Shown one piece after another: positions 19,701-52,515 of a DNA stretch of 52,515 bases. The translations under genes and the position numbers were made by a program. Source of the DNA: a virus; IMG/VR virus record IMGVR_UViG_3300030331_006073, positions 1 through 52,515 of that record; one strand, written 5' to 3'. Within the stretch, counting starts at the first letter, position 1. Every line of letters begins with the position of its first letter. The notes beneath the pieces are model-generated. The model was not told the origin of the DNA, did not search any database, and saw only the letters and a list, made by a program, of their open reading frames with translations.

Positions 19701-22023
19701 TGCCTTAACCGGACAGGGGCTCGGCATGACCTTCGCTGCAGGGTCAAACCCTGGAGAGGTTGTTTTTACTTTGTCCGGGGTGGGTACCCCATCAAATGCG
19801 GAACTCATCGCTGCAAATGGAGCTTTGAATGATGGTTCAAACAATAGAGTTATAGCTGATTCTTCAATTACTGCGTTCTCTGGCACGCCAGTGGGGACTG
19901 GAACAGAACAAATACAATTTAGAGCAGCATCGGTGTACTTTAGTGAACTGGAAAAAATAAATATCGCGGCTAATTTGCCAAAAATAGTTATAACTGACCA
20001 TGCTGGCACCTCAAGAACATATAAATTCCGCGCATCGACAAGAAGCTATGCAGCCGAGACTGGTACAACTTTCTTTGCCGTAACATCTTCATGGACGGCC
20101 CCCCAAGTGGCGTCAAACTTTGCAAGCACCGTAAATACGGATATATCAGGCGGAAACATAAATTTAGCAACTACAGGCGTATCTACTGACACGGTGACAT
20201 TGACCCTAAATGTAGCCGGCGCCTCGACTTCGGACGCAATAGTGGTTTCTGACGGTACCGTTCCAGGTACAATCGTCACTGGCGGAAGTGTAATCGCAGA
20301 ATCAAACCCAGGCTTCAGTGTTGGTAACGACCCAGATTCTTCTGATTTTGCAAATGACTCAACAGTAGATACTGATGAGTGTACTCACGGATATATGCCA
20401 TATGTTCCGCCTTTCTTAGATGCAGGCGCAGAACCATATGTTGAAGTAACTTTTACACCAAGTAGAAGCGCTAATTATACAGCAAAAGAAATTATAGAAG
20501 AATGTGCCTTTTCTTATAGTAACTTTAAAGAGCAGCCAAGTAATCCTGGACAAAATACAAATTACATTAATTCAATGTCCTTATCAGCGTCATTAAATCT
20601 TGGAATGGCAGTGACTTTGAGAACGGACAATGAGTCTTATGATTACGTTAAGAACCCGAACACTAATTTGTTTGAAAAGCAAAACATTGTTCCGTTTGCC
20701 GGAGACCCCAATAATAAGCTGTCTAGGTGGGTGATACAATCCAAATGGGAGACACCAGTTCTTGACTTTTTAAACGTAACATCTTCGGCTTTAGACCTGG
20801 ACACCAACTCTGTAAGAGAAGTCAGCGGCTCTCCGTGGAAAGAGAGGTATTGGGATGTTTATTATAAGAAAAACTTTGAAAGACAGAACCAAACTAGTGG
20901 AAACTTTCTTACTTCATCGACTGGAATGTGGCACCAAAAAGGAGAGGTGGTTAACACAGCCGCGCTCCAAGAAAAACAAAAAGGTTACTTTTTAAGAATA
21001 GAGGACGTAGAAACAGGAGATTCCTCAGGCCTCGCAACAATAATGGGATTCAATGAGCCTGTAGATGAAGAAGAAAGAGAGCAGAAGTCTCTAAATCTGC
21101 CAATTGCTCCGGAAACGCGTAATAGAATAGGCCCAGTCGAGGACAAAAAGCTAGTAAAAGAAGCAGTAGTGGCAATACCTTATGTTTTTATGAAAGAGAA
21201 AGACGACCCTGTTCAATTTGTTAATTTTAGACCAGGGTTCTATAGAATGGCCTTAGAATCTAGAGAAAGAAAAATTACAGACTTGAATAATCTGCTTTTG
21301 TCTAACCAGGTTTCCACAAGAGAGGAGGTCGCAGCACAAAGAAGGTTGTATCAAATTTTGGAGTCTAGCCCAATGAGTGACTCACCAGTAAATGCAATAG
21401 AGTATCAACTTAATATGATGGACGAATTTGTCCTACCGCCTCAGCTGGATTTTAGAGTAACAGGTGAAAGTCCATATATGATGTACTTTTTTCAGTTCCA
21501 TGCAGAGTTTGATATTGACGATGTTTCAAATGTCTGGCAAAACTTATCACCTGTTTCTGCCGGCTCGACGGCTTCACCAAGATATACAAGCAGCTCAAAG
21601 TCATTTAACAACAGAGACAACACAACACTGTTTGATGTTTCATACGTCAGTCACTATCTAGACACAGTAGAGCTCAATGGTCTTGAGTTGTCCCCAGTAA
21701 GTGATTATAGGAGTCTTTTTTCTCCAGATAGTGGCGCCAAGCATGAAACTCGTTGGCTGATTTTTAAAGTTAAACAAAGAGCGGAGCACAATTTTGAAAA
21801 AATAAGACTGAAATCAATTGACAGCCGCATTCACAACATAGAGGGTGGGATACAATATATAAAATCTTCAAAAGACTCCAAAATAAACCAAGAACAGTTG
21901 AAAAATGTTCCAGGCTTGCAGGATGGCCACCTTCACTTTAACTGGCCATATGATTACTTTTCCTTTGTAGAGCTAATTAAATTAGAGACCAAGATTGATA
22001 CATTCAACAATAGGCAAAAGTAG
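10702..22023 (+). CDS. 3773-aa giant tail/adsorption protein with LamG-like domain and repeated modules
   Basis: Very large virion protein starting at ATG 10702, overlapping the previous stop by four bases. Residues about 140-410 look like a LamG/concanavalin-like sandwich: an EFWMKKS strand, FHHYAISVDY, a YVDFYVDGF strand, SLDEVRFWKTKRNAEEI, then YYKFNEG and DYSGRLNNGTF. Such domains bind glycans or proteins. Residues about 1171-1284 and 1656-1769 are two copies of one 114-aa domain with no gaps between them and about 82% identity. Residues about 2766-3203 hold three more distant relatives of that fold. The remainder is unrecognised, mixed and soluble, with no membrane or signal segment. Context between gp6 and other tail genes suggests a long baseplate-anchored appendage or hub, with the repeats as add-on binding units. 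Confidence 0.75.
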   Translation: MNNKEKNLQDLKRKEKTFLQHSNVRQSAESSKRYNSVLESPEYALAYKKINERIFPNFNIRNPSTFAKYGNAKKYYENSYKNIHNSYPYDGSGLEKINWSLSASAVDLAILQHEYPLETGHVTFCSSGWGTVSATDGRYSLPSNPEYIKFSGGPYANTVIDSNTNRESSLKIDPSSGNTLEFWMKKSNFESTLTQNEVIFDSYTIDFPEGNNSHGRFLLELAPNEGSSGKSPFFFTYLSGNVGLDRVRIGEGLNNSAVADGKFHHYAISVDYRENSIYVDFYVDGFFNSKNVVSSVPSFGPVEGYFEGALGALATPKDSLGGLGYGKLSASLDEVRFWKTKRNAEEIGNYYDFPVHGATDEENISSNLGIYYKFNEGTVGNTNTDKIILDYSGRLNNGTFVGYAATARSADSAITLSDATQQKEPGDPIINPLNPKVKSTLNELVDLAFSYDLNNSNSIMNSLPTWTREKTSNSVSNDSDFEILMQVVAERFDSIWMIIDQLPSIGFTQYRDFVYGKASIDHRRNFSCLVGCEKDFVHASHGLNSFDNFSVQNLMGRGFSVDEMPLVNKSSLNEYFNNLRLDQYDQSSNQFSNLLYSKIDAIKDKILNSVYVNLSNIYKTKGTFQSFRNLMRCFGVDERLLIPNIYGQNVEKDISASKGKNYESLEIKSFSFSNKNRAATLVPKSNSSEEKKFIEGQSTPVEYTIETKAILPKLTDITLTQTTSSIFGIRDVQSPSGLASSVNTAGVTVESVKSSGTNKGAYFMLKSKAGLFADIKTEYFKDVFNNTPWYLAVKFCEDEDLSFQKANTSTVKKYKVEFSGYRYDTDVLLQSFNHSASISQANYNTFSAKHKGVYCGAERANLTGDVVQNAESRMLYLNFWTSKISEDDSKIHAQNIKSVGLSNPMDYNLPKEDRQTQLDTLAFSWQFDNPTRSSTTYSIQDASGGSLDKISEYGNINGAKYPAETIGVVDVGSFSDTEHITTVTEYQIDNLKSESMVELKEREVDRFLLSSRPVTYLFTYEKSMYQVISKEMLNMIGGVIAYNKLIGEPINKYRPEYKNLEKLRDKFFANVENDISLERFVRYFKWIDSSLGSMLESLQPATSQMDMTLKDIVESHSLERNKYKHQLPQFDYKDPDLEGQILAINELLYDWEHGHAPVGGSFAEGARASATITTTGNPSNNEEFTLTDGDLLSVTYIFKTAVSTVDGSKDSGKVIIGIKNATGHAASVGDRMRAALIASDLNATVEEVSAGVMKLTQNTKGSNGNTEIDMSSVTTVTATNFSGGITPADESDNCLWWRDRAERTEALSITGAPNSLREEIRTKTNNISVSGSTYVLRKLIRPYIFTSDRQRVYNLGSNRNSNKNKQLYKVVNTGKNIEIEKTDIFEFKQCGDIIDPHSEKIYTAKTNTTGTKGYLDADADMIFPFTLYSSSVGSDFSNFKEKMIITNNHDDHTESLQSAWAFSHNGMPHRRVKVGTPPGDDRPEAYNIDATASKFIISQASGPRSIASIGPTPSSAYHIGNIKTNRESIPIVLGNYDKVYEIVQTHGRHLNNRYLTKSGSFDITPITPSRVYGSTDYTPVERFRSEHVFVNRFSALGAPENSGMYTRDLETEEYSIYNTINYRNQLVRGISNLLSAEYSEKFGYRTLPVALAATGTITTTGNPGNNEEFTLTDADGLSVIYIFKTGVATVDGSKDSGKVIIGLNGASGHAPSVGDRIRAAISASDLNVTVEEVSGGVMKLTQNTKGSSGNTEIDMSSVATTTSTNFSSGRDLTMASTHMTNRNYFHYTASGGELSRPDNFFVQHPIPQNDFSYSWITASAEDDKHSFVNRNDGFGHEHNFHTSSKPGITFLSSSQRVENLDFARTNFNIIDNVLTGSNFISSSLNTYNLNDILLNRNGPYGWPTWKQLRNSWNPLVIKHMRNNIYSRTFYGIEDEDFEGQQPFSAQSKTPSMNAMMNMPNFAREFHNSDDPYVASTEVNKREDLISRSGPAQRRVSVNYKENPLTDRFRAASITIHNALRPNPDFEQRIVAQAQLLEFGLNVDPNDPNSFPIMDTAPIAIQQIRNSRWWSDALYYESLDESDENVDLSYSISPLERQRTRISDPESYLQNVTIRKTFQNDISMFSNMQIQIDQNLKDRIENSNFFDFISQLEVENQIKDNKLIEVNYIEKIYPREINTFTKNVRTREYFDYFPWKSARTNRNIVLTGSVSYSSDFAALRLASLKAFPRITVESGDKKKTTYLERYDAVDVSHIGSKTGPVVEDRISGSAWPLDSRKDFSQQPTNIASGFVNTGPGFIKSRDQATRHEGILQNDFSTWPLGYNGLYGTPPFSLVYNRRIPQEHSSKVLLSGEAMWEAATSSHSPFHYDNYVDYAHHDIRLVGQDHSIVPEFRISEFVEDILLGERDYPNIGNDYLSLTGAIYHNSSGDLNVGGQFFKTYSNSDFLKYFKDYDEEIADLPFSHTRINFRCVAAMKFIPYDGLYPAERTVKLATMFSENYLPQRTLLGAEFRENALADVDVSKTYLSLRANSCKYQASKPFFGPGVLYNSIKAGVAVDYPVFQASFANVSNLPAAAPLRDYSALNLNSGVAFTGSILNSTKDCGIPRIKSTVTKRIEFEDILSPARLHGELIYDNEPHPSASLIYGNKHWEKIIERPTSFGRFNLDQLVRTLGIVHRNPEEDFAMQMAPYTMAMQNFASETVNFFVDNGKLTTMVSKPVNRFFKQGTNHKMRVYLTNVETMMYDRHSAFGPPVHDGSTSKTNVQNTSAGTAESTTITFNNPATFSLNTITSEDNLPRITIVDGLDNSAEVFLFENGTSAGTNTTNRIFIDTSSASAADVAASMRTFLLASSLDVTATVNGSGAITIALASPGKSISNSVALRNGNLGSAGTITVSNFGAVDITNNSSFGFSGDVAGTQFSTSVKFSTSLVNAKSGLSALCPASAAAYPSLKVVDEASNQKTIRFYNSAAGGPCTHGEPTVSNVIYIDLDGISGSSSIANEVITALTGQGLGMTFAAGSNPGEVVFTLSGVGTPSNAELIAANGALNDGSNNRVIADSSITAFSGTPVGTGTEQIQFRAASVYFSELEKINIAANLPKIVITDHAGTSRTYKFRASTRSYAAETGTTFFAVTSSWTAPQVASNFASTVNTDISGGNINLATTGVSTDTVTLTLNVAGASTSDAIVVSDGTVPGTIVTGGSVIAESNPGFSVGNDPDSSDFANDSTVDTDECTHGYMPYVPPFLDAGAEPYVEVTFTPSRSANYTAKEIIEECAFSYSNFKEQPSNPGQNTNYINSMSLSASLNLGMAVTLRTDNESYDYVKNPNTNLFEKQNIVPFAGDPNNKLSRWVIQSKWETPVLDFLNVTSSALDLDTNSVREVSGSPWKERYWDVYYKKNFERQNQTSGNFLTSSTGMWHQKGEVVNTAALQEKQKGYFLRIEDVETGDSSGLATIMGFNEPVDEEEREQKSLNLPIAPETRNRIGPVEDKKLVKEAVVAIPYVFMKEKDDPVQFVNFRPGFYRMALESRERKITDLNNLLLSNQVSTREEVAAQRRLYQILESSPMSDSPVNAIEYQLNMMDEFVLPPQLDFRVTGESPYMMYFFQFHAEFDIDDVSNVWQNLSPVSAGSTASPRYTSSSKSFNNRDNTTLFDVSYVSHYLDTVELNGLELSPVSDYRSLFSPDSGAKHETRWLIFKVKQRAEHNFEKIRLKSIDSRIHNIEGGIQYIKSSKDSKINQEQLKNVPGLQDGHLHFNWPYDYFSFVELIKLETKIDTFNNRQK
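14212..14553 (+). repeat. Internal domain repeat, copy A
   Basis: 342 bases encoding 114 residues, from TITTTGNP to NFSGG. It aligns without gaps to copy B at 15667-16008, with 21 amino-acid differences counted by eye. Some stretches, such as the VMKLTQNTKG and NTEIDMSSV coding regions, are almost identical in DNA, which indicates recent duplication or gene conversion. Confidence 0.9.
15667..16008 (+). repeat. Internal domain repeat, copy B
   Basis: 342-base partner of copy A, in the same reading frame, with 1113 bases between the two copies. Residues at strand and turn positions (FTLTD, YIFKT, VDGSKDSGKVIIG, SVGDR, LTQNTKG) are conserved. Differences cluster around the presumed loops. Confidence 0.9.
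18997..20310 (+). repeat. Cluster of three diverged domains of the same general type
   Basis: Within the giant gene, three consecutive units of about 130-150 residues each show the order: beta strands, a LPRITIVDG / PSLKVVDEASN / LPKIVITDHAG motif, an aromatic strand (VFLFENG, TIRFYNS, TYKFRAS), an Ala-rich helix, then a T/V/A-rich strand pair. This resembles copies A and B at the level of layout but with low identity. The Ala, Thr and Ser content is higher than in the rest of the protein. Confidence 0.55.
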
Positions 22024-36069: not shown

Positions 36070-39000
36070 ATGAGATTTGCTCATATTGCGGATACCCATA
36101 TCCGGAATCTAAAATATCACTTTGAATATAGAGAAATATTCAAGCAATTATATAAATCATTAAAAGAAGAAAAAGTAGATTACATTATTCATTGCGGAGA
36201 TATCGCACATACCAAAACACAAATATCGCCAGAGTTTGTGGATATGTGTCGTGAGTTTTTTGAAAACTTAGCAGCTATTGCACCAACATATATTATATTG
36301 GGAAACCATGACGGCAATTTAAGAAACGACAGCAGACAAGATGCTCTGTCTCCAATAGTTAAAGCTATTAATAATTCAAACTTATCATTGATTAAAAATG
36401 CAGGAGAAGTTAAGCTTAACAGTGACTTCTGTTTAAATGTGCTATCAGTATTCGATGAGGATAACTGGACCAAGCCAACAGACAAAAGCCTTGTTAATAT
36501 TGCGCTTTATCATGGAGCAATAAACAAATCTAAGACGGATAGTAATTGGACTCTGGGCGGAGACCACAGTATAGAAATTTTTGAAGAGTTTGACTTTGCC
36601 TTCCTTGGAGATATTCACAAAACACAAAAATTAGACAAAGATGGTCGAATTTGGTATGCTGGTTCAACTGTTCAGCAAAACTTTGGTGAATCTCTAGATA
36701 AGGGTTATTTACTTTGGGATATAGAAAGTAAAAACGAGTTCACTAACAAGCTTATTACTTTTAATAATCCAAAGCCTTTTGTAACGCTAGAACTAACCAA
36801 AGCAGGGAATTTACCAAGAAAGAAACCACCGGCAGGTGCCAGACTTCGTATTGTTTCCGACGAGAATGTGACCCTTGACAAAGTAAGAAAAGCAGTTGAT
36901 ATTGTTAAATACAAATATAAGCCAGAGTCAGTAACTTATCTTAACAGAGCCGCCGGCAAACAGATAACAGTTCAAGCGCCTAAGGGTTTAAAAAAACAAG
37001 ACCTTCGTGACCTCAAAACACAAGAGATTCTAATGCAAGAGTATTTAAAAGAATACGATGTCACCGATGAAGTTATGGCCAAGGTCTATGATTTGAACAA
37101 AAAGTACAATGTTCAAATTGAAGAAGGAGAAGATGTACTTAGAAATGTACACTGGTCCCTGCAAAGCTTAGAGTGGGATAATTTATTTAACTACGGAGAG
37201 GGAAATAATATTGATTTCACCAAACTAGAGGGGATTGTAGGTATTTTCGGCAAAAACTATTCAGGTAAGTCTTCTATTGTAGATACTTTGTTGTATTCTC
37301 TTTATAATTCAACTAGTAAATCTATTAGAAAAAATTTAAATATTATAAATCAGAACCGTGATAATTGCACAGCCACCGCAACCATAAAGATTGATGATAA
37401 TGAATATGTTGTAGAGAGGGTCTCTAAGAAATATACCAAGCGCCTTAAGGGGGCCGAGACTCTAGAGGCGAGCACTGACCTTGAGTTTTACAGAAAAGAC
37501 CTCACAGGAAATGTAGAGGGCCTCAATGGAACCTCCCGACAAGATACAGACAAGAACGTAAGAAAGTATTTTGGCACATTAAGTGATTTTCTTATGACTT
37601 CTATGGCTAGTCAGCTTGATTCACTATCGTTTATTAACGAGGGCTCCACAAAGCGTAAAGAATTCTTGGCTAAATTTCTTGACCTACAAATCTTTGATAA
37701 GAAGTTTAAAATGGCAAAAGAAGATTCTGCTATGACTAAGGTAGCCCTAAGAAGACTAGAGGGTACCGACTTTGAGACACAAATATCTGAACTCAAAAGA
37801 GATATCATAAAAAGCGAGCTTAGTATTGAATCTAACAAGGCATCATGTTCAGATATCAGGGCTGTTATATTAGACGCTAACAAAGAATTGTTGGCAGTAG
37901 AAGCAAAGATTGAGTCGGTACCAGCTGAAATTATAGACCCTGTAATGACCTCACGCGCTATCAAAACAAAAGAAAAAACAATTCTTGGTATTACTTCTAA
38001 AAAAACAAAATCTATAGAAGAGCTTAGGCTTAGTGAAGAGAGGTATGAAAAGATTGCAAGCTTTGTAGGAAAGTTTGATATTGCATCATATACGCAAAAG
38101 AAAGAGCTTATTACTCAGAATAAGAAAAAGATAGAAGAACTTATTCATAGTATTAAGCTACAAAGCGAAGAGAGGGATAGAAACCTGAAAAAACAAAACC
38201 TACTGAAAGAGGTACCTTGCGGCTCTCAATTTCCTTCTTGCAGATTTATTAAAGACGCACACCAAGCAGGAGACTTAATTCAGATTTGTGAGTCTAGAAT
38301 TGCTACACTATCTAGAGATGTGAACAAAACAGGAGAAGCTTTAAATCAGAATGACCCAGAAACAATTGAAAGCCATATAGAGAAATATAATCTACTTCTA
38401 GAGAAAAGAAACGTTTTAGCTACAAGTATCGCTAACAACAAGTTGTTTATTGAAAAAGCAGAAAGTTCTTTATTTAAAGAACAAGTTGAGTTACAGGAGC
38501 TTCAAAGCAAGAGCTTTGAGTACGAGCAAAACAAAGATGCAATTGAAAACTTAAAAGACCTAATTAAGTCTCGAGATGAAAAAAAAATATTTATTCAAGA
38601 GTGTGAATTGAAATTACAAGATTGTGAAAATAAAATTATGACTTTACATAAGAGACACGGTTCGTTAGAGCAAAAATTGAGGCACCTAGAGCAGGGCTTT
38701 GAAGAATATGAAACCCTTAAAGATGATTTTGCGGCTTATCACCTGCTTATGACCTGTTGCCACCCTAATGGTGTTTCATATGAGATTATTAAAGAGAGGC
38801 TGCCTTTTATTAATCAAGAAATTGCCAAGATACTTACAAATATTGTTGACTTTGAGGTTTTTATTACTAATTCTGATGACAAGCTTGATATTCTTATTAA
38901 ACACCCTAGACATGATGCAAGACCACTAGAGATGGGTTCCGGCGCAGAAAAGACTATTGCAGCAATGGCAATTAGGCTAGCCTTTCTTACAGTTTCAAGT

Positions 39001-39207
39001 TTACCAAAGTCCGACCTATTTATATTAGATGAACCCGGCACCGCCCTTGATGAAGAAAATATGGAGGGCTTTGTTAGGATTTTAGATATGATAAAGGGAT
39101 ATTTTAAGACAGTTATTCTTATTTCACATCTAGACAATTTAAAAGATTGTGTTGATATGCAAATTAATATCGAGAGAAAAGATGGATTTGCATACGTTAA
39201 TGTATAG
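36070..39207 (+). CDS. gp47/gp46: Fused Mre11/SbcD-Rad50/SbcC recombination nuclease (gp47-gp46 fusion)
   Basis: 1045 aa in one chain. The N-terminal phosphoesterase has every Mre11 motif: D8-x-H10 (ADTH), GDIAH with D44, GNHD at 78-81, His148 in LYHGA and GDIH at 180-183. A linker region (about 235-360) corresponds to the capping domain. The Rad50 part begins with Walker A GKNYSGKSS (394-402). It continues through two long charged coiled coils around a Cys pair at 717 and 724, and ends with signature GSGAEK (956-961), Walker B FILDEP (984-989), D-loop ALDEEN and His1020. In T4, separate gp46 and gp47 process DNA ends for recombination-dependent replication and degrade host DNA. The gene has its own sigma-70-type promoter and a strong GGAGG. 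Confidence 0.92.
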   Translation: MRFAHIADTHIRNLKYHFEYREIFKQLYKSLKEEKVDYIIHCGDIAHTKTQISPEFVDMCREFFENLAAIAPTYIILGNHDGNLRNDSRQDALSPIVKAINNSNLSLIKNAGEVKLNSDFCLNVLSVFDEDNWTKPTDKSLVNIALYHGAINKSKTDSNWTLGGDHSIEIFEEFDFAFLGDIHKTQKLDKDGRIWYAGSTVQQNFGESLDKGYLLWDIESKNEFTNKLITFNNPKPFVTLELTKAGNLPRKKPPAGARLRIVSDENVTLDKVRKAVDIVKYKYKPESVTYLNRAAGKQITVQAPKGLKKQDLRDLKTQEILMQEYLKEYDVTDEVMAKVYDLNKKYNVQIEEGEDVLRNVHWSLQSLEWDNLFNYGEGNNIDFTKLEGIVGIFGKNYSGKSSIVDTLLYSLYNSTSKSIRKNLNIINQNRDNCTATATIKIDDNEYVVERVSKKYTKRLKGAETLEASTDLEFYRKDLTGNVEGLNGTSRQDTDKNVRKYFGTLSDFLMTSMASQLDSLSFINEGSTKRKEFLAKFLDLQIFDKKFKMAKEDSAMTKVALRRLEGTDFETQISELKRDIIKSELSIESNKASCSDIRAVILDANKELLAVEAKIESVPAEIIDPVMTSRAIKTKEKTILGITSKKTKSIEELRLSEERYEKIASFVGKFDIASYTQKKELITQNKKKIEELIHSIKLQSEERDRNLKKQNLLKEVPCGSQFPSCRFIKDAHQAGDLIQICESRIATLSRDVNKTGEALNQNDPETIESHIEKYNLLLEKRNVLATSIANNKLFIEKAESSLFKEQVELQELQSKSFEYEQNKDAIENLKDLIKSRDEKKIFIQECELKLQDCENKIMTLHKRHGSLEQKLRHLEQGFEEYETLKDDFAAYHLLMTCCHPNGVSYEIIKERLPFINQEIAKILTNIVDFEVFITNSDDKLDILIKHPRHDARPLEMGSGAEKTIAAMAIRLAFLTVSSLPKSDLFILDEPGTALDEENMEGFVRILDMIKGYFKTVILISHLDNLKDCVDMQINIERKDGFAYVNV

Positions 39208-41222: not shown

Positions 41223-42809
41223 ATGTCTTTCTCTCTTTCCAAGAAAGAAGTGATGAGAGAAATAGTCAAGTGCGGCAAAACTCCGGATTATTTTATAAAT
41301 ACATACGCTAAAATAACCCATCCGCAAAAGGGCTTGATTCCTTTTCACTTATATGATTTCCAAAAAAAACTATTGGAAGACTTTCAGGATTATAGATTCA
41401 ACGTTATATTGAAAGCCCGGCAGCTTGGAATATCTACAATTTCCGCGGCGTATGTTGCTTGGCTAATGATGTTCCACAGAGAAAAAAATGTATTAGTTAT
41501 AGCGACAAAGTTTAATACGGCAGCAAATTTAGTAAAAAAAGTAAAAGCAATAATAAAGAACCTTCCAGACTGGCTCAGAATATCGAATGTAGACATAGAC
41601 AATAGGACAAGCTTCGTATTATCAAACGGCTCTCAGATAAAAGCGTCGTCAACCTCTGGTGACGCTGGCCGCTCCGAGGCTTTGTCTTTACTGGTGATAG
41701 ACGAAGCTGCCCACGTTGAGGGCCTTGAGGAGCTCTGGATGGGCCTTTATCCAACTCTATCAACAGGCGGCCGCTGCATCGCACTCTCAACGCCAAACGG
41801 CGTCGGAAATTGGTTTCATAAGATATATAGCGAATCTGACTCCGGGGAAAATGATTTTCACCCTACTGTGCTCCCATGGAGTGTGCACCCAGATAGAGAT
41901 AAAGCCTGGTTTGAGAAAGAGACTAGAAACATGTCTCGCAGGGAGATTGCTCAAGAGTTAGAGTGCAATTTCAACATGTCCGGTGAGACGGTCTTTTCTC
42001 CTGAAGACTTAGAAAAATATGGTAACCTTTGTGTCGACCCCGAATATAGGACTGGTTTTGATAGAAATCTTTGGATTTGGGAAAAGAGGAAAGACGAAAA
42101 GAGTTACTTTATATCGGCTGATGTTGCTCGTGGGGATGGCAAGGATTATTCCACAGCGATAGTTTTTTGCACAGAAACTATGACCGCAGTAGCAGAGTAC
42201 AAAGGCAAGTGCACTCCAGATATATTCTCTAGGGTCTTATATGACCTAGGAGTTGAATACGGAAACGCGCTTTTAGTGGTTGAAAACAACACAGTTGGCT
42301 TTGCTGTGTTAGAAAAATTGAGAGAATCAGAGTATCCCAATCTTTACTATTCTATAAAGAGTACACATGAGTTTGTCGAAGAGTACCAAGCAGAAAACAT
42401 GAACAACGCTGTTGCGGGCTTCTCAATGACTTCTAAGACACGTCCGCTAATAGTCGCAAAGATGGAAGAATTTATAAGAAATGGCCTAATTACATTGTAT
42501 TCAGCCAGAATGTTGTCGGAAATGAGGACATTTATTTGGAACAATGGGCGCCCAGAGGCTATGAGGTCGTATAACGATGATTTAATAATGGCTTGTGCAG
42601 TTGGTTGCTGGATTAGAGACACTGCTCTATCGGCTAATAAGAGACAATTAGAGTATAACAAAGCGTTCATTGGTGGTATAATGAGAAGCACCAACGAACT
42701 CGACACCAGAATAAAAGGAATGATAGGCACAAAGAACATGAAAATGTCAGAAACCCTAAAAAATCATCAAAAAGTAAGCACGCAGTTCCCATGGTTATTG
42801 AAGGGGTAA
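41223..42809 (+). CDS. gp17: Terminase large subunit
   Basis: 528 aa, ATG 41223. N-terminal ATPase: a Walker A variant KARQLGIST (64-72) of the kind found in T4-type terminases, Walker B LLVIDEAA with Asp160/Glu161, and coupling motif STPNGVGNWF (189-198). C-terminal RNase H-fold nuclease: Asp300 in SADVARGDG, Glu354 in LVVEN and Asp452/Asp453 in YNDDL form the metal site. The enzyme cuts concatemeric DNA and drives it through the portal by ATP hydrolysis (headful packaging in T4). It is slightly shorter than T4 gp17. The portal gene begins after three bases; sheath and tube genes, which lie here in T4, are absent. Confidence 0.97.
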   Translation: MSFSLSKKEVMREIVKCGKTPDYFINTYAKITHPQKGLIPFHLYDFQKKLLEDFQDYRFNVILKARQLGISTISAAYVAWLMMFHREKNVLVIATKFNTAANLVKKVKAIIKNLPDWLRISNVDIDNRTSFVLSNGSQIKASSTSGDAGRSEALSLLVIDEAAHVEGLEELWMGLYPTLSTGGRCIALSTPNGVGNWFHKIYSESDSGENDFHPTVLPWSVHPDRDKAWFEKETRNMSRREIAQELECNFNMSGETVFSPEDLEKYGNLCVDPEYRTGFDRNLWIWEKRKDEKSYFISADVARGDGKDYSTAIVFCTETMTAVAEYKGKCTPDIFSRVLYDLGVEYGNALLVVENNTVGFAVLEKLRESEYPNLYYSIKSTHEFVEEYQAENMNNAVAGFSMTSKTRPLIVAKMEEFIRNGLITLYSARMLSEMRTFIWNNGRPEAMRSYNDDLIMACAVGCWIRDTALSANKRQLEYNKAFIGGIMRSTNELDTRIKGMIGTKNMKMSETLKNHQKVSTQFPWLLKG

Positions 42810-42812
42810 TAA

Positions 42813-44831
42813 ATGTCAAACAATAAAAATAAAAATAATCCAAGAAACACTCAAAGTGTCCTCTTTAGGCGCCTAACCAGACTCCTGTCCGGACCATTAG
42901 TCAACTACAGGACACAGACAAGTCACAGGCTGAGAAGAATGGATTTGGACAGGTATGCCACAAAGTTCACTTCAGCTTCTGGGGCGGACTTCAAGAAAAC
43001 AGCGTATAACCCATATGACAATCTCCAGGCCCAAGCGATGGCAGCGCAAGCTAGAACGGAAAGGTATGTCGATTTTGACCAAATGGAGTACACACCAGAA
43101 ATAGCCTCTGCTCTAGATATATTTGCAGACGAGATGACAACTTATAGTGCCTTGAATAAAGTTCTAGGTATAAATTGTGATAATGAAGAGATAAAGCTAA
43201 TTTTAGAATCGTTATATTATGATATACTAAACATAGAATATAATTTGTTTTCTTGGTGCCGGTCGATGTGTAAATACGGGGACTTTTTCCTGTACTTGGA
43301 CATTGATGAAAATTTAGGAATAACCTCAGCAATTGGGCTACCCACCTCAGAATTGGAAAGAATGGAGGGCGAAGATAAGACAAACCCCAACTATGTCCAA
43401 TTTCAGTGGAATTCAGCAGGCTTAACATTAGAGAATTGGCAGATAGCACACTTTAGAGTTCTCGGTAACGATAAATATAACCCTTACGGAACATCAGTGC
43501 TGGAACCAGCCAGAAGAATCTGGCGCCAGCTGACTCTTTTAGAGGATGCAATGATGGCTTACAGGATTGTTCGTTCTCCTGAGCGCCGCGCTTTCTATAT
43601 TGATGTTGGTAATATACCTCCACAAGACGTAGAGCAGTATATGCAAAAAGCTATGACACAAATGAAGAGAAATCAAGTGGTCGACCCAGATACTGGCAGG
43701 GTAGATTTAAGGTATAACCCACTCTCAGTAGAGGAGGACTATTTTATACCCGTTCGTGGAGGTACGAGCGGAACTAAAATAGAGTCTATTGCAGGGGGAA
43801 AGTACACCGGAGATATAGATGATGTTAAGTATCTTAGAGATAAACTCTTTTCTGCATTAAAAATTCCAGCTTCTTATTTAAGCTCCGATGCAGAAAAAGC
43901 CCAAGAAGATAAATCAACTTTGGCGCAAAAAGATATTAGATTTGCCAGAACAGTGCAGAGGCTTCAAAGGTCAATAATTTCTGAGTTGGAAAAGATAGGC
44001 GTAATTCACCTTTATACTCTGGGGTATAGAAGTGAAGACTTGGTCAGCTTCAAGGTTAAGTTAAATAATCCATCAAAGATATCAGAGATGCAAGAATTGG
44101 AACACTGGAAAACCAAGTTTGATATAGCCTCTTCAGCGACAGAAGGGTTCTTCTCGAAACAATGGCTAGCGAAAAGATTGTTTGGTATGAGTGATGATGA
44201 ATTCCTGAGAAACAGAAGGGAGATGTTCTATGATAGGCGCTTCGAAGCCGCTTTAGAGACTGCAGCAGAAGCAGAACAGGCTGCAGCGACAGCCCCCGGA
44301 GGAGAGTTCGCAGCTGATATGGGCGAACCAGGAGGCACAGGCACGGCTGGAATGGAACCAGAACTAGGCGCCCCAACGACCGAGACCCCAGGGGCCCCAC
44401 CTGAAGCAGCGCCGGCTGCAGCCCCAGACGCTGGCGGCGCCGCCCCTGATGGTGGCCTTTTGGCAGCTCCTCCAGCAAAGAGAGACGACAAAGGACGCCA
44501 AGTAAAAAAGGAAAAAGGCAAGGTTAAAACTACGACAGAGAAGTCTCACGGCTGGTACGAGCCTAGGTTAAACTCCCCGGGTGGAGACAGAAGAGGCACT
44601 TCCGGCCCGAGAAAGAAGAATATGAATAGAGCAGCTACACCAGAAACCGGAACATCAAGGAAAGTATACCCAGGATATAGCGAATTAACGGGCTTGGCCA
44701 AGGGAACTAGTATTTACGAATCAAAGAAAACTAATTACTCTGAAGAGGAAGAAAAAAGACTCTTTGAACAAGAAGAGGAGCTAAAGAAACTGTTTGAAAA
44801 TTTAGACTTTACATCGAGGAAAAATAAATAA
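42813..44831 (+). CDS. gp20: Portal vertex protein
   Basis: 672 aa, ATG 42813, AAGGGG upstream. T4 gp20-type portal: residues 70-95 DFDQMEYTPEIASALDIFAD, then CRSMCKYGDFFLYLDI, HFRVLGNDKYNPYG and ARRIWRQLTLLEDAMMAYRIVRSPERRAFYIDVGN (here split only for naming), and KIPASYLSSDAEKAQEDKSTL. The dodecamer forms the DNA channel, nucleates the prohead and docks the terminase. After residue about 480 the chain becomes Ala/Pro/Gly-rich, then Lys-rich and Glu-rich, an extension of about 150 residues that looks disordered. Its stop overlaps the next ATG by one base. Confidence 0.96.
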   Translation: MSNNKNKNNPRNTQSVLFRRLTRLLSGPLVNYRTQTSHRLRRMDLDRYATKFTSASGADFKKTAYNPYDNLQAQAMAAQARTERYVDFDQMEYTPEIASALDIFADEMTTYSALNKVLGINCDNEEIKLILESLYYDILNIEYNLFSWCRSMCKYGDFFLYLDIDENLGITSAIGLPTSELERMEGEDKTNPNYVQFQWNSAGLTLENWQIAHFRVLGNDKYNPYGTSVLEPARRIWRQLTLLEDAMMAYRIVRSPERRAFYIDVGNIPPQDVEQYMQKAMTQMKRNQVVDPDTGRVDLRYNPLSVEEDYFIPVRGGTSGTKIESIAGGKYTGDIDDVKYLRDKLFSALKIPASYLSSDAEKAQEDKSTLAQKDIRFARTVQRLQRSIISELEKIGVIHLYTLGYRSEDLVSFKVKLNNPSKISEMQELEHWKTKFDIASSATEGFFSKQWLAKRLFGMSDDEFLRNRREMFYDRRFEAALETAAEAEQAAATAPGGEFAADMGEPGGTGTAGMEPELGAPTTETPGAPPEAAPAAAPDAGGAAPDGGLLAAPPAKRDDKGRQVKKEKGKVKTTTEKSHGWYEPRLNSPGGDRRGTSGPRKKNMNRAATPETGTSRKVYPGYSELTGLAKGTSIYESKKTNYSEEEEKRLFEQEEELKKLFENLDFTSRKNK

Positions 44832-46605: not shown

Positions 46606-47214
46606 ATGAAGTTAATAAGAGAATATTACGAATTATGTGACGGTGGAATTTGCCAAGACTTACTGACAGAGTCAGAAAAGAAGTTTGTTGCTGAAGGCGG
46701 CTGTATTTTGTCTGGGCTGATGCAGGAGGCAGAAGTCAAGAACGGCAACGGTCGAACTTATCCGCTATCAGTTTTGCAGAGAGAAGTTGCGCTTTATGAG
46801 AAGCTCGTTAGAGAGGGGCGCGCCCTTGGTGAGTTGGACCATCCTGAGTCTTCTGTAATCAATTTGGTAAATGCCTCTCATATTGTTACCGCAATATGGA
46901 TGGACGGCCCAAAGTGTTATGGTAAGATAAAGGTCCTGCCCACCCCGTCCGGAAAGATACTGCGGTCGCTAGTAGAAAGTGGAGTATCTCTTGGCATATC
47001 TTCCAGAGGCCTGGGGTCCCTGGAAGAGAGAAATGGAATATCAGAAGTTCAGGACGACTTTCAGTTAATATGTTTTGATATGGTGTCAGACCCATCTACA
47101 CCCGGAGCGTTTATGGGACTCACAGAATCTAAAGACCGCCCAAATATATTTACCAAAAATGACAAAGTCAACAGAGCGCTTGATAATATATTGTATAAGT
47201 TCGGCAAGAAATGA
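46606..47214 (+). CDS. gp21: Prohead maturation protease
   Basis: 202 aa, close to T4 gp21. Herpesvirus-assemblin-like serine protease signature: LSGLMQEAEVKNGNGRTYP, then GELDHPESS with the likely catalytic His79, SHIVTAIW, and SLGISSRGLGSL with the nucleophile Ser132 or Ser133. The protease is built into the core, cleaves scaffold and capsid proteins after L/I-x-E motifs, and then destroys itself. Expected targets in this window are gp22 and gp23, and the latter has LRE and LLE sites near residues 48-59. Ribosome site is weak; a leader ORF and a hairpin precede it. Its stop overlaps the next start (ATGA). Confidence 0.93.
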   Translation: MKLIREYYELCDGGICQDLLTESEKKFVAEGGCILSGLMQEAEVKNGNGRTYPLSVLQREVALYEKLVREGRALGELDHPESSVINLVNASHIVTAIWMDGPKCYGKIKVLPTPSGKILRSLVESGVSLGISSRGLGSLEERNGISEVQDDFQLICFDMVSDPSTPGAFMGLTESKDRPNIFTKNDKVNRALDNILYKFGKK

Positions 47215-47624
47215 AAAAATCAGAATTAAAAGCACTCATTAAGCAGTGTGTTAAAGAAGCATTATTCGAAGAAGGCGTCCTCTCGGAGATTATTGCAGAG
47301 GTAGCTTTTGGGCTAACGAAGGCCCAAACCATAATGCTTGAGCAAAAATCTAAAAAAGAACCGGAAGACTTTACAAAGCAAATTGCTGCAGAAAGAGAAG
47401 AAAACAGCAGAAAGTCTTTGGCAGAAGCAAAAAAGAAAATATTAAACGCTATCGGAAAAGAAAGCATGTCAGGCGTTTTCGAAGGTACCGAGCCTTTAAA
47501 GAGTGCTCCATCACCGTCGGCATCTCCCCATAGCCCTTTGGCCAATAGGGACCCTAGTGATTCAGGAGTAGACATATCTGGTCTCTTTAGTCTCGCGGGT
47601 AAGAAATGGAATGCACTAAAATGA
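47211..47624 (+). CDS. Head-module protein with LKALIKQ N-terminal motif
   Basis: 137 aa, ATG 47211 overlapping the gp21 stop. Opens MKKSELKALIKQCVKEALFEEG, an amphipathic helix like the start of the small protein at 35841. It continues as a Glu/Lys helix, then turns Ser/Pro-rich (about 100-120) and ends near SLAGKKWNALK. Such short helical proteins beside the protease in T4-like phages are often prohead core or internal head proteins. That is an inference from position and composition. Confidence 0.6.
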   Translation: MKKSELKALIKQCVKEALFEEGVLSEIIAEVAFGLTKAQTIMLEQKSKKEPEDFTKQIAAEREENSRKSLAEAKKKILNAIGKESMSGVFEGTEPLKSAPSPSASPHSPLANRDPSDSGVDISGLFSLAGKKWNALK

Positions 47625-47648
47625 AAACAGAAAAAAGGATACTTTAAA

Positions 47649-47888
47649 ATGGGAAAGAGAACTCCAGTACACGCAGAAGTGTATATAAGAGACCAGCAGC
47701 AGTTTGAGAGAATGCTTAAAAAGTTTACTAAAAAAGTAAAAAAATGTGGTATTCTTGATGAAGTCAAAGAAAGAAGATACTATACAAAACCTTCAGTTAA
47801 AAGAAGAAACAAAAAATTAGAAAAGAAGAGACTAATTAAAAAAGCTGTGGAAAAAGAAAAAAATAAACTTTCCAACGAATATAAGTAG
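47649..47888 (+). CDS. rpsU: Ribosomal protein bS21 homologue
   Basis: 79 aa, ATG 47649 with AAGGA. Highly basic. The pattern of bS21 is present throughout: FERMLKKFTKKVKKCGILDEVKERRYY, then KPSVKRRNKK followed by a Lys/Arg helix. It compares closely with the bacterial pattern F-x-x-x-L-x-R-F-K-R ... G-[IV]-L-x-E-[VL]-[RK]-x-R-x-[YF]-x-K-P. Bacterial bS21 is about 70 aa and sits on the 30S platform near the anti-Shine-Dalgarno end of 16S rRNA. Phage copies are known from other large aquatic phages and may replace the host protein to bias initiation toward phage mRNAs. It lies in the head operon, 24 bases after the previous gene, and would thus be made late. Confidence 0.9.
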   Translation: MGKRTPVHAEVYIRDQQQFERMLKKFTKKVKKCGILDEVKERRYYTKPSVKRRNKKLEKKRLIKKAVEKEKNKLSNEYK

Positions 47889-47900
47889 AGGTATTATATA

Positions 47901-48368
47901 ATGGCAGGCAAAGGATTTAGTCACACACCAAACGCAGGAGAGTTCAGAACTGCGTCAAGCTGGGGTCGAACTCGTAGACCAAAAAATTTAAATGGTGCTA
48001 GTTCCACTGCCCAGGCCCAGATAGGAAAGGTCGCCGGCGCTAAGACCGCGGCCCCTACAGTTGTCGGCGATGGACACGTAACTGAAAATCAAAGGTATTT
48101 GCACCTCGCTCTCATAGCCGATGCAACTGTGGCGACTAGGCAAATTACAGTCTGGGCGTGGAGCCATGCGTTTGAAACCTGGGCAATTCTTAGACCTGTC
48201 GGCACACCGGCCACCAACGCAGTTATCGGAGCAACCGCATCACAAGCAAACTATTCAGTGTTTGAGATAAGTGGAGTTGACAAAGTTTACTTTCAGGACA
48301 CTGGAGCTGGTGGAGCTGGGGCCATTCAAGTCGGCGACGAATTTTACGCTGCATGTTCCACATTTTAA
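47901..48368 (+). CDS. Capsid-proximal protein, short paralogue
   Basis: 155 aa, ATG 47901, AGAGG upstream. Begins with a Gly/Ser/Thr/Arg segment (TASSWGRTRRPKNL), followed by an Ala-rich linker and a beta-rich domain of about 90 residues (TENQRYLHLALI ... ITVWAWSHAFETWAIL ... ISGVDKVYF ... FYAACSTF). The first and last parts are clearly related to the next gene product, which has a lectin-like domain between them. Small beta proteins encoded just before scaffold and capsid genes are often head decoration or fibre proteins. That role is inferred. Confidence 0.7.
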   Translation: MAGKGFSHTPNAGEFRTASSWGRTRRPKNLNGASSTAQAQIGKVAGAKTAAPTVVGDGHVTENQRYLHLALIADATVATRQITVWAWSHAFETWAILRPVGTPATNAVIGATASQANYSVFEISGVDKVYFQDTGAGGAGAIQVGDEFYAACSTF

Positions 48369-48378
48369 GGTTTAAGTA

Positions 48379-49527
48379 ATGTCAAGCTTTCATACCTACA
48401 GCAGCTGGGGCAAAACAAGAGGCACTAAGAATATATTATCGGAAGCCTCGATAACTCCACCCACAAACTTTCCAGCAACCAAAGTGATGGCATTTGATGG
48501 CACTGATGACTTTGTTCGTGTGTCGGATGACGATGTTTTTACATTTACAGATGGCACCCAAAATGTCGGAAGTGATAAGCCTTTCTCCATACAAGCTTGG
48601 GTAATGATAGACGAGCCTGACCTTAATCTTGATGGCGCAAGGCAGGGTGTTTTTGTTTCTAAATTTCGTGGAAACACTAATGTAGAATATTTTTTTGGCC
48701 AATTGGATGGCAGAGTGCTTTGGAACCTGTACGATAATAATGCCCCAAACAATACTGATGACCCAGGCCAAGGGCACCCAGCAAAGTCATCAAATCGTAT
48801 TAAAGCTACAAGTGGCGTTATAGCGCATGATGTTTGGAACCACGTAGTTGTTACCTATGATGGGTCAAAACATGAGAATGGCCTAAACATTTATGTCAAT
48901 GCAGTGCTCAACGTCACCGCACGGGAAGACACGAATGACAACTATAACGGAATGGTTAACACTAATTTGGATGTAGTTATAGGGTCTACCGATGATGGCA
49001 GCGCAGATTTTGAAAAGAAGATGACAAACGTTGCAATGTTCAACAAAGAACTATCAGTAACAGAGGTATCCGAGCTTTATAACAATGGTCGAGTTTTAAA
49101 TCTTACAACTTTTAGTGATTATAATAGTGTTATCGCCTGGTGGAAACTTGGAGATGGAGACACTTTACCAACCGCTATAGACTCTAAAGGCGGCAGAAAT
49201 GGCACAGTAACAAACGCAACATTGGTAGACGAACCCGGAGCTGCAAGGCCTGGCATATTTGCGACAGATGGATTCTCTACTGAAAATCAAAGATACTTAA
49301 ACTTAAGAATATCCGAAGCAGGTGACAACGCACAGCCGGCAGTAACAGTGTGGCTTAAATCTTATGGTATGGGCTATGACAGGTGGGCAAAGCTAGACAC
49401 TTTTAGCGGAGTGCAAAACTCTGTTGTTACTCATGTAATAGATATTAACGGCGCCGATAGGGCCCTTCTAATTTGGGACGGTAATGGCAATGATGTTAAA
49501 ATTTCTGCTGGATGTTCAACTTTTTGA
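48379..49527 (+). CDS. Capsid-proximal protein with inserted LamG domain
   Basis: 382 aa, ATG 48379, ten bases after its shorter paralogue. Residues 1-25 (YSSWGKTRGTKNI) and about 295-382 (TENQRYLNLRI ... VTVWLKSYGMGYDRWAKL ... INGADRALLIW ... SAGCSTF) match the 47901 product. Between them, about residues 35-285, lies a LamG/concanavalin-like domain: MAFDGTDDFVRV, FSIQAWVMID, WNHVVVTYDG, GLNIYVNAVLN, VAMFNKELSVTEVSELYN, WWKLGDG and DSKGGRNGTVTNAT. The likely product is a head surface protein that presents a carbohydrate-binding domain. A tail fibre is possible but less consistent with the position next to gp22 and gp23. Confidence 0.75.
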   Translation: MSSFHTYSSWGKTRGTKNILSEASITPPTNFPATKVMAFDGTDDFVRVSDDDVFTFTDGTQNVGSDKPFSIQAWVMIDEPDLNLDGARQGVFVSKFRGNTNVEYFFGQLDGRVLWNLYDNNAPNNTDDPGQGHPAKSSNRIKATSGVIAHDVWNHVVVTYDGSKHENGLNIYVNAVLNVTAREDTNDNYNGMVNTNLDVVIGSTDDGSADFEKKMTNVAMFNKELSVTEVSELYNNGRVLNLTTFSDYNSVIAWWKLGDGDTLPTAIDSKGGRNGTVTNATLVDEPGAARPGIFATDGFSTENQRYLNLRISEAGDNAQPAVTVWLKSYGMGYDRWAKLDTFSGVQNSVVTHVIDINGADRALLIWDGNGNDVKISAGCSTF

Positions 49528-49629: not shown

Positions 49630-50838
49630 ATGTCAAGTTTATTAGAAAGAGCCATTATTGATGCCACAGCGCTTAAGGAAGCTGCCCTTAAGACCGCAGA
49701 AAATACAATAATTGAGAAATATTCCAACGAAGTTAAAGATGCGATGGATAGGCTCTTGGAGCAAGAGGGCGACCCTTTCGCAGCCACAGACGCGTCGCTT
49801 TCCGACCCAAACCCAATGGGAATGGGCAATATGGAGCTAGATACCGACACCGACATGGGCATGGAAGATGCTGGAATGGACCCCGGCTTAGAAGATGACC
49901 TCGATACAGATACACCAGAAGAGGAAGAAGATAACTTTTTTGACCAAATTCCAACAGGTTTTGACCCGGACCTCACTGACCCAGAAGATGAAATCATCAA
50001 CATAAAGTTAGATTCTCTAAGAGCCGAGCTTCCAGATGAAGAAGAGGTTGGTGTTTTCGGCGGAGATGACGAACTTGAGGATGACGAAATTGGAATTGAC
50101 GTTCAAGACGATGATGAAGAGTTAGACTTTGAAAATGAGTTTGGCGATGACGATGATGGGCTTGAGATAGAAGATGACGATGTTGAGGTAAATGCAGACG
50201 AACTAGAGGGCATGATATCAGAAATCATAAACAACCTAGACCTTGACGACGATACTGATTCCGAGCTTGAAGAAGCCGTCAGGGTTGACTTCGAGCCTCA
50301 AAAAAGCGGATGGGCAGGAACCCCTGAGTCTATCATGCGCGAATACGAATCTATGTTACTTGCGAGAGAGCAAGATAGCGAAGTAAAAGAAGAAAACGAA
50401 GAGCTGCGCAAAACAGTAGCAGCCTTACAGAAAGAAAACAAAACTTTAGGAACTGTTGCCACAAAATTAAAGGCACAGATAGAAAAATACTCTACAACAC
50501 TTGAAACTTTGCAAGAAAAGTTGGAAACCACGAATGTTTCTAACGCGAAGTTGTTGTACATTAACAGAGCTTTAGAAAATGCCTCCCTGAATGAGCGACA
50601 AAAAGAGAAAATTGTCGAAGCCATTTCAAAAGCCGAAACAATACAAGAAGCAAAGATAGTTTTTGATACACTCGAAGATACAATCACTTCTTCCCCTGCA
50701 GAGAAGAGGTCTGGTGGTTTAAACGAGGCCGTTTCAAGACGTTCAACGTTGCTTGTAAATGCTCGAAGCGAGCAAAGGCAAAAGGTTGCTAATCCTGTGT
50801 ATGATAGATTACAGAAATTAGCAGGGATAAAAACATAA
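49630..50838 (+). CDS. gp22: Prohead core scaffolding protein
   Basis: 402 aa, ATG 49630, GGGAG upstream. Helical N-terminus (SSLLERAIIDATALKEAALK), an extremely acidic middle (about 55-220, runs of Asp/Glu), then a coiled coil (about 240-325) and a basic C-terminal helix (YDRLQKLAGIKT). Acidic, helical, and immediately upstream of gp23: the standard profile of the T4 gp22 core protein that shapes the prohead and is later degraded by gp21. The C-terminal segment with NRALENASLNERQKEKIVEA is typical of gp22-like proteins. The family is recognised by layout more than by motif. Confidence 0.85.
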   Translation: MSSLLERAIIDATALKEAALKTAENTIIEKYSNEVKDAMDRLLEQEGDPFAATDASLSDPNPMGMGNMELDTDTDMGMEDAGMDPGLEDDLDTDTPEEEEDNFFDQIPTGFDPDLTDPEDEIINIKLDSLRAELPDEEEVGVFGGDDELEDDEIGIDVQDDDEELDFENEFGDDDDGLEIEDDDVEVNADELEGMISEIINNLDLDDDTDSELEEAVRVDFEPQKSGWAGTPESIMREYESMLLAREQDSEVKEENEELRKTVAALQKENKTLGTVATKLKAQIEKYSTTLETLQEKLETTNVSNAKLLYINRALENASLNERQKEKIVEAISKAETIQEAKIVFDTLEDTITSSPAEKRSGGLNEAVSRRSTLLVNARSEQRQKVANPVYDRLQKLAGIKT

Positions 50839-50864: not shown

Positions 50865-52515
50865 ATGTCTGTTTTACAGAGACTTACAGAAGGTGTTGTT
50901 CAGCGTAACGTTCAGAAGGAAGGTGAAGCTCTACTTAACAAGTGGGAGCAGACCGGTCTTCTTGAAGGTCTTAACGAGGGACAGCAGAAGCAGGGAATGG
51001 CCGTCCTGCTTGAAAACCAGGCTAAGGAGCTTCTCCGTGAGGCTTCATCTATGGCAGCTGGCGATGTCGAAGGCTTCGCAGCAGTTGCTTTCCCAATCGT
51101 TCGTCGTGTATTCGGTGGATTGATTGCAAACGATTTAATCTCGGTTCAGCCGATGAGCTTGCCATCTGGCCTCATCTTCTTCCTTGATTTTACGCATGAA
51201 TCAGCTCGTGGCGGAGCCGCGGCTGGCGAGTCGGTATACGGCGGAAACGTTGTTGCACGCGGCTTGACTGGCGGTGTGGACCTTTCTGGTCCTGCAGGAC
51301 GCCTAGGGGCAGACGGCCCAGGTGGACATTACGATATGGGCCATCGCGCCGCTCAGGCAACGGCATCGGTTTTTCTCGCAATAGACTCATTCGCCCCGGC
51401 CGACGCAACGACTGCCTTGGGCTTGGTCACTGACGTGTCAGCTTCTCTTGTTTCTGGATTAACAGAAGTTCAAAAGAAAGCTATTAGATACGATGCTGAT
51501 ATTCTAGCCGATGGCGGTGTTGTTACAATTTTGGCACACACCGGGACTGTTGCTACTTTAAATGCGAAAATTGGTTCACCAATTGATGAAGAAGCTCTCG
51601 CTGCTTTCGGAACTGATTACTCGCCAGCTGCCGACCGCGCCTCTACTATCGTCCGTCGTCTCACTCGTGTTGAGGGAGATAAGGTAATTGTAGTTCTTCA
51701 CGATAAAGATGGCACTGCAGGCCTTGCCAACCAAGGCTTCACATCAGGTTCTATCGGCGGCGGCGGCGCGGGTATTGATGAGGCCATGGCATTTAAGTTT
51801 CCAATCAAGGACGACTTGCAGCCAGGTAATGGTCTTGGGTCTGTTATTGGTCAGGATGTTTGGGGCCTTGAAGAGCCACAGCCTGGTACCGGAAATGCTG
51901 GTAACAGCGTAGGCAAGAACACGATTCCAGAAATCGACATCAAGGTTGACAGCATCGCTGTTACCGCTCAGACAAAGAAGTTGAAGGCAAAGTGGTCCCC
52001 AGAATTGGGTCAGGACCTCAATGCTTATCACAACTTGGACGCTGAGGTTGAGTTGACTGGTATTCTTTCTGAGCAAATTGCTTTGGAAATTGACCGTGAG
52101 CTTCTTGGTGAGCTTGTTCAGGGTGCAACCGCCGGTACTCGTTACTGGAGCCGTGCACCAGGTCTTTTTGTTGACAGCAATGGTGCCGAACTCGGCGCCC
52201 AATCTGCAGCACCTGACTTCACTGGTACGGTTAGTGAGTGGTATGAGACACTCATTGAAACCATCAATGACGTTAGCGCTCAGATTCACAGAAAGACACT
52301 TCGCGGTGGTGCAAACTTTGTTGTTTGTTCACCAGAAGTTGCTAACATCCTTGAGTTCACCAGTGGTTTCCGCGCAAGCGTAACTGCTGACCAGGACCGT
52401 GGCACCATCGGTGCTGTTAAGGCTGGTAGCTTGAGTAAGAAGTTCGACGTTTACGTTGACCCATACTTCTTGCGAAACGTAATCCTCGTTGGCCGTAAGG
52501 GTAGCTCGTTCCTCA
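50865..52515 (+). CDS. gp23: Major capsid protein, 3' partial
   Basis: ATG 50865 with GGAGGT at 50851-50856; 550 codons are open to the window end. T4 gp23-type HK97-fold capsid protein: FAAVAFPIVRRVFGGLIAND (71-90), then LISVQPMSLPSGLIFFLDF (91-109), a hallmark of the family. The first 60 residues form the delta domain, with gp21-type cleavage candidates LLE (48-50) and LRE (57-59); cutting at the latter would start the mature protein at Ala60. Codon choice differs from all neighbours, with many CGT, GGT, CTT and CAG codons and few AGA, as expected for the most abundant product. The missing part lies beyond the right edge. Confidence 0.97.
   Translation, partial: MSVLQRLTEGVVQRNVQKEGEALLNKWEQTGLLEGLNEGQQKQGMAVLLENQAKELLREASSMAAGDVEGFAAVAFPIVRRVFGGLIANDLISVQPMSLPSGLIFFLDFTHESARGGAAAGESVYGGNVVARGLTGGVDLSGPAGRLGADGPGGHYDMGHRAAQATASVFLAIDSFAPADATTALGLVTDVSASLVSGLTEVQKKAIRYDADILADGGVVTILAHTGTVATLNAKIGSPIDEEALAAFGTDYSPAADRASTIVRRLTRVEGDKVIVVLHDKDGTAGLANQGFTSGSIGGGGAGIDEAMAFKFPIKDDLQPGNGLGSVIGQDVWGLEEPQPGTGNAGNSVGKNTIPEIDIKVDSIAVTAQTKKLKAKWSPELGQDLNAYHNLDAEVELTGILSEQIALEIDRELLGELVQGATAGTRYWSRAPGLFVDSNGAELGAQSAAPDFTGTVSEWYETLIETINDVSAQIHRKTLRGGANFVVCSPEVANILEFTSGFRASVTADQDRGTIGAVKAGSLSKKFDVYVDPYFLRNVILVGRKGSSFL

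Follow-up and report, generated by a model that had tools for sequence, protein, structure and literature searches.

A phage-specialised ribosomal protein bS21 encoded in the head-gene block of a lineage of large T4-like phages

Introduction

Ribosomal protein bS21 belongs to the 30S subunit, where its neighbour is the 3ʹ end of 16S rRNA, which holds the anti-Shine-Dalgarno (anti-SD) sequence. The presence of bS21 in phages, its late expression and a model of ribosome takeover have already been published (PMC9723584; Mizuno 2019, PMC6375957; PMC7162821). In the survey of Chen 2022 (PMC9723584), bS21 had the prohead protease gene no more than ten genes away in 310 of 900 phages and the capsid gene near it in 154 of 900. 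Here we analysed a window of 52,515 nucleotides (the whole stretch of DNA under study), which is an entire IMG/VR virus record, and in which the first-pass annotation, made from the letters alone, had reported a bS21 gene and had noted that such genes occur in other large aquatic phages. A 68.6-kb contig of the same phage (L001) reaches beyond the window.

In Microcystis phage Mel-JY01 (PP395634, RpsU) the order is the same as in the window, i.e. protease, hypothetical gene, bS21, two ORFs, scaffold and capsid on one strand; however, its host is cyanobacterial, its bS21 is 42% identical over 50 aa and its terminase large subunit (TerL) is 43% identical. The freshwater Bacteroidetes bS21 phages of clades a-e, for which late ribosome takeover was proposed (Chen 2022, PMC9723584), likewise carry bS21 a few genes from the terminase, portal, protease and capsid genes, but there it is Bacteroidetes-like and lies on the strand opposite to the structural genes, whereas in the window it is co-directional and the phage uses SD sites. 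The head block of Flavobacterium phage immuto and its relatives, which includes portal, protease, scaffold and capsid genes, is related to that of the window, but the slot of these phages contained no bS21 in any of 65 loci, and their genes are without Shine-Dalgarno sites.

Pelagibacter phage HTVC008M is, like the phage of the window, T4-like and equipped with bS21, and its protein is the one shown to enter ribosomes (PMC6375957). Its gene, in contrast, is separated from that for the capsid protein by 16 kb; it has a CobS gene on one side and, one gene further on at the other side, a heat-shock gene, and the protein groups with a set of Pseudomonadota bS21s. A second recurring setting of bS21 was observed in HTVC008M and Pseudomonas phage PA5oct (L174 27858-30415, L172 2734-5478), in which it is next to a CobS or ClpX ATPase gene, a gene for a hypothetical protein of ~111 aa and a heat-shock gene. 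In huge phages, rpS21 has basic N-terminal extensions, as in the window, and competition with host S21 was proposed; that study (Al-Shayeb 2020, PMC7162821) lists S21 among the translation genes, in passages that do not describe the head-block slot. One genome among the huge phages, the 484-kb LR756508, carries bS21 in the same slot as the window, directly before the scaffold gene. We also observed that the protease (L268 1481-3205, 574 aa) and the portal protein (L092 7764-11924, >1300 aa) of this phage match in separated pieces, as if they contained large insertions such as inteins.

Results

Head-gene block around bS21

The window contains a T4-like head module with homologues of gp17, gp20, gp21 and gp23 in order (Terminase_6N, Portal_T4, Peptidase_S77 and Gp23). 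The features of the block are as follows:

41223..42809, + strand: terminase large subunit, T4 gp17 type (Pfam Terminase_6N, 2.2e-10; used for the lineage tree)
42813..44831, + strand: portal protein, T4 gp20 type (Pfam Portal_T4, 3.1e-83)
46606..47214, + strand: prohead (head maturation) protease, T4 gp21 type (Peptidase_S77, 4.3e-28; PHROG 207, 3.5e-54)
47211..47624, + strand: gpD, small lineage-conserved ORF between protease and bS21
47627..47648, + strand: bS21 upstream leader with an AGGA Shine-Dalgarno-like site ~10 nt before the ATG (from the sequence)
47649..47888, + strand: phage bS21 (rpsU-like), 79 aa, ATG start (Pfam PF01165, PHROG 21469, TIGR00030)
47901..48368, + strand: small ORF directly 3ʹ of bS21, partly resembling the next ORF (32% over 101 aa)
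48379..49527, + strand: ORF with a Laminin_G_3 / concanavalin-like (LamG) domain (Pfam PF13385, 3e-12)
49630..50838, + strand: scaffold-like acidic coiled-coil ORF in the T4 gp22 position, directly 5ʹ of the capsid gene and conserved in relatives
50865..52515, + strand: major capsid protein, T4 gp23 type (Pfam Gp23, 7.1e-56), cut by the window end and longer in L001

The order on the + strand is terminase, portal, three ORFs, protease, gpD, bS21, two ORFs, scaffold-like ORF and gp23-type capsid gene, and the gaps flanking bS21 are 24 nt and 12 nt. The first-pass annotation had located bS21 between the protease and scaffold genes and considered its tight linkage to head genes worth attention. 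The same-strand slot and the co-directional linkage within a T4-type head block are indeed there, but gpD upstream and the two ORFs before the scaffold separate bS21 from both named genes, and the linkage is not new in kind (310 of 900 phages, as above). For gpD, searches of Pfam, PHROG and NCBIfam gave no confident family match, and it was found in nearly all related loci that reach past the protease; for the scaffold-like ORF, Pfam and PHROG searches gave no specific family match. Between 46,702 and 51,821 the + strand showed no terminator-like site, so that a single transcript carrying bS21 with the head genes is plausible.

The two ORFs following bS21 (47901-49527) share a related stretch, which suggests duplicated surface or decoration proteins, variable among relatives; a decoration-type role for the first of them is a guess. 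In T4, gp47 and gp46 are two separate genes. In the window, one ORF of 1045 aa (36070-39207, + strand) fuses an N-terminal Mre11/gp47-like metallophosphoesterase to a C-terminal Rad50/gp46-like ATPase, and the single ORF was also present in Mel-JY01 and a 175-kb relative. A giant ORF of 3773 aa (10702-22023, + strand) is located downstream of baseplate-like genes, and its homologue in the 175-kb relative is split over two ORFs.

Identity and origin of the window bS21

A full-length bS21 ORF had been annotated, and it is present exactly as described. The HMM search that the first-pass annotation had named as a possible refutation placed the protein inside the family, with a Pfam Ribosomal_S21 (PF01165) match of 1.9e-13 and 50.3 bits (cut-off 27) over profile positions 1-52 of 55, and an NCBIfam TIGR00030 S21p match of 45.1 bits (cut-off 28.95). 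It also matched PHROG 21469, ribosomal protein S21 (1.2e-9), and bS21 chains in solved ribosomes (1.7e-7). Since all these sources agree, the ORF is not a chance one, and on its sequence we assign it as a true bS21. The core residues are kept: F26 in helix 1, R42, and K47, P48 and S49, which form the K-P-S motif before the long helix; across 50 phage bS21 sequences the corresponding conservation was 100% for F, 90% for R, 98% for K, 76% for P and 94% for S, and 28/28 scanned phage members matched the Ribosomal_S21 model. The AlphaFold model (mean pLDDT 88) has three helices (16-33, 35-43 and 48-78), and its best fold match, a weak one (E 0.49), was the mitoribosomal small-subunit chain 5aj3_U (bS21m). 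The protein is strongly basic, with a net charge of +18.

The nearest relatives of the window bS21 were phage bS21s in the same slot, with the top identity of 75% (L023), whereas the best bacterial match in our sample reached 41% over 56 aa. This sample consisted of 64 proteins of Pseudomonadota and Bacillota, and in the tree built with them the window bS21 fell with the phage bS21s. In comparison with these 64 proteins, helix 1 of the phage group has M/L in place of A and K in place of S/Q and of E/Q, and R replaces E before the K-P-S motif; the group also showed a higher net charge (18.2 vs 14.0) and, in most members, an N-terminal extension. As judged from these features, the window bS21 is a phage-specialised protein and not a recent host-type copy, contrary to the label given in the first-pass annotation. 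The proposed use of the gene as a host marker did not hold either, and the suggested phylogeny yielded no donor: the closest proteins are those of phages, and no donor lineage can be named because the sample is one of Pseudomonadota and Bacillota, with Bacteroidota and Cyanobacteriota left out. A scan of genome contigs for a bacterial donor returned two loci only, a Clostridia bS21 and L093, itself a phage of this lineage. The latter is 24 kb long and was assigned to an Acidiferrobacteraceae MAG, although its positions 1-6141 are a phage head block of the window lineage with bS21; the assignment is either a binning error or a weak hint of the host. A phage search with the L030 bS21 as the query gave no matches.

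A fixed slot across relatives

Relatives were retrieved via the protease and not via bS21, so that loci without bS21 could turn up; the alignment used as the query came, however, from loci that carry bS21, and matches beyond the best 80 were discarded. Loci were regarded as informative when the protease was followed downstream by a scaffold or capsid gene. Among these best 80 protease matches, bS21 was found between the protease and the scaffold or capsid gene, on the same strand, in 46 of 47 informative loci, the single exception being Flavobacterium phage immuto. The 46 loci include Mel-JY01, one contig fetched twice (L002, L020) and the phage of the window itself (L013), and several carry identical bS21s; the number of independent cases is therefore below 46. 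In the same set, every locus without a recognised scaffold or capsid gene but with more than 1.92 kb past the protease also carries bS21. Further Mel-JY01-like contigs had bS21 in the slot in 7/7 cases, in the order protease, gpD, bS21, scaffold. Mel-JY01, the 484-kb phage and each of 14 viral contigs of 68-190 kb carry exactly one bS21. Unlike in clades a-e (PMC9723584), where the orientation is opposite, bS21 of the window and of every informative relative was co-directional with the structural genes; a host with a sequestered anti-SD, another trait of those clades, does not fit here, as judged from the SD-using genes of the phage itself.

In the TerL tree the window lineage forms one clade (99/99), the 484-kb phage and the bS21 carrier L265 branch outside the Mel-like/immuto-like group (95/83 and 95/93), and the immuto-like phages, which lack bS21, are nested inside bS21 carriers. 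Together with the slot occupancy, the simplest reading of this tree suggests that bS21 was gained at the slot once, long ago, and that the immuto-like phages later lost it, again in a single event. One clade for all head-slot bS21s was not rejected (AU p = 0.31), the gene being too short for the test to say more; as its tree is not resolved at depth, independent gains at the same slot are possible. The dN/dS of bS21 was 0.02-0.22 in pairs with usable dS, indicating purifying selection. The distance matrix of bS21 correlated with those of its neighbours at 0.41-0.70, and the neighbours among themselves at 0.40-0.88, i.e. the divergence of bS21 tracks the neighbouring genes about as well as they track each other.

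Shine-Dalgarno sites and late promoters

The genes of the window use SD sites (mean anti-SD duplex energy of -5.05 vs -2.13 kcal/mol for the background), and the bS21 leader, at -5.4 kcal/mol, is at the 12th percentile of the background. The first-pass annotation had suggested comparing SD strength between early and late genes; in the 175-kb relative, SD sites of structural-gene homologues were not significantly stronger than those of other genes (p = 0.17), and SD strength was therefore dropped as the basis of a late-gene preference. The T4 late promoter TATAAATA occurred 7 times vs 3.9 expected, which is near chance, with no copy just upstream of bS21, and it was likewise rejected.

Every sampled locus of the window lineage and of the Mel-like phages used SD sites, whereas all sampled immuto-like loci were SD-depleted, as expected for phages of Bacteroidota hosts. 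A strict correlation of SD use with bS21 presence holds for these three groups but is broken by the 484-kb phage, in which bS21 is present yet the genes are SD-depleted. The association, drawn from essentially one contrast and from simple ORF starts, would suit an anti-SD role, but it is not strict, and since the SD-depleted 484-kb phage keeps bS21 in the slot, the function of the protein is not simply to favour SD messages.

Discussion

Our preferred reading, to which we give a probability of roughly 0.7, is that a phage-specialised bS21, vertically inherited in the head block of large T4-like phages, exchanges onto 30S subunits late in infection. The gene would be transcribed with the late head genes, so that bS21 is made when capsid protein is needed; the protein would then exchange onto 30S subunits, close to the 3ʹ end of 16S rRNA, where it could keep or bias initiation towards the abundant late phage messages as the host supply falls. 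The exchange step is drawn from the established biology of bS21 and from earlier studies (PMC6375957, PMC9723584, PMC9976891). In lake phages transcripts of bS21 and of structural genes are abundant together (PMC9723584), in Flavobacterium bS21 mutants mRNA selectivity is altered (PMC9976891), and the HTVC008M bS21 enters E. coli 70S ribosomes (PMC6375957). However, E. coli ribosomes with the HTVC008M protein supported GFP translation at only ~5% (PMC6375957), so that a translational benefit of phage bS21 stays hypothetical. Late exchange into host ribosomes is plausible, and the late co-expression and ribosome exchange put forward by the first-pass annotation coincide with the published working model (PMC9723584, PMC6375957 and PMC7162821).

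The conserved slot between protease and scaffold adjoins the core genes of T4-like heads, and bS21 is strongly basic (net charge +18), so it could also be packaged in the capsid as a core or internal protein, delivered with the DNA and active on host ribosomes at the start of infection, a possibility raised by Chen 2022 (PMC9723584). We consider this unlikely: no T4-type capsid-targeting sequence was recognised in inspection by eye, and the bS21 record of PA5oct is without a mass-spectrometry note, which some of its neighbours have, although in that phage bS21 is located outside the head block. Searching the literature for S21 in virion proteomes gave no result. The fixed location would also fit a bS21 that has taken on another task, in head assembly or on nucleic acids, with no relation to ribosomes, as would the changes at positions near-invariant in the sampled bacteria (A to M/L, G to R/K), but every scanned member still matches Ribosomal_S21 with the F, R and K-P-S core kept, and related immuto-like phages build heads without bS21, which leaves such a role very unlikely. 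Transfers of bS21 between hosts and phages have occurred repeatedly (PMC6375957), and the HTVC008M protein groups with a set of Pseudomonadota bS21s; a recent host-derived moron sitting by chance in the head block is nevertheless disfavoured and the least likely of these explanations, given the same slot in all 46 informative lineage loci and in deep TerL-tree branches, the low identity to the sampled bacteria (41% over 56 aa), the phage-specific residues and the correlation of bS21 distances with those of head genes.

A broader version of the vertical-inheritance reading, which is tentative and rather unlikely, would make bS21 a core late head-module gene, gained once at this slot in an ancestor of several large-phage lineages, kept in phages whose hosts differ widely and lost a single time, in the lineage entering Bacteroidota hosts with a hidden anti-SD; it may then act jointly with head assembly, for instance by being packaged and injected.

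The usual view of phage bS21 is that of an auxiliary gene acquired from the host, whereas across the lineage studied here it has the behaviour of a core head-block gene. What is new is that in this lineage bS21 is a long-standing component of the head block, fixed in place and co-directional, not host-type, with a natural sister group free of it. This bS21-free sister group, the immuto-like phages, and the cultured carrier Mel-JY01 provide a ready comparison for testing whether phage bS21 exchanges into ribosomes and which messages would be affected.
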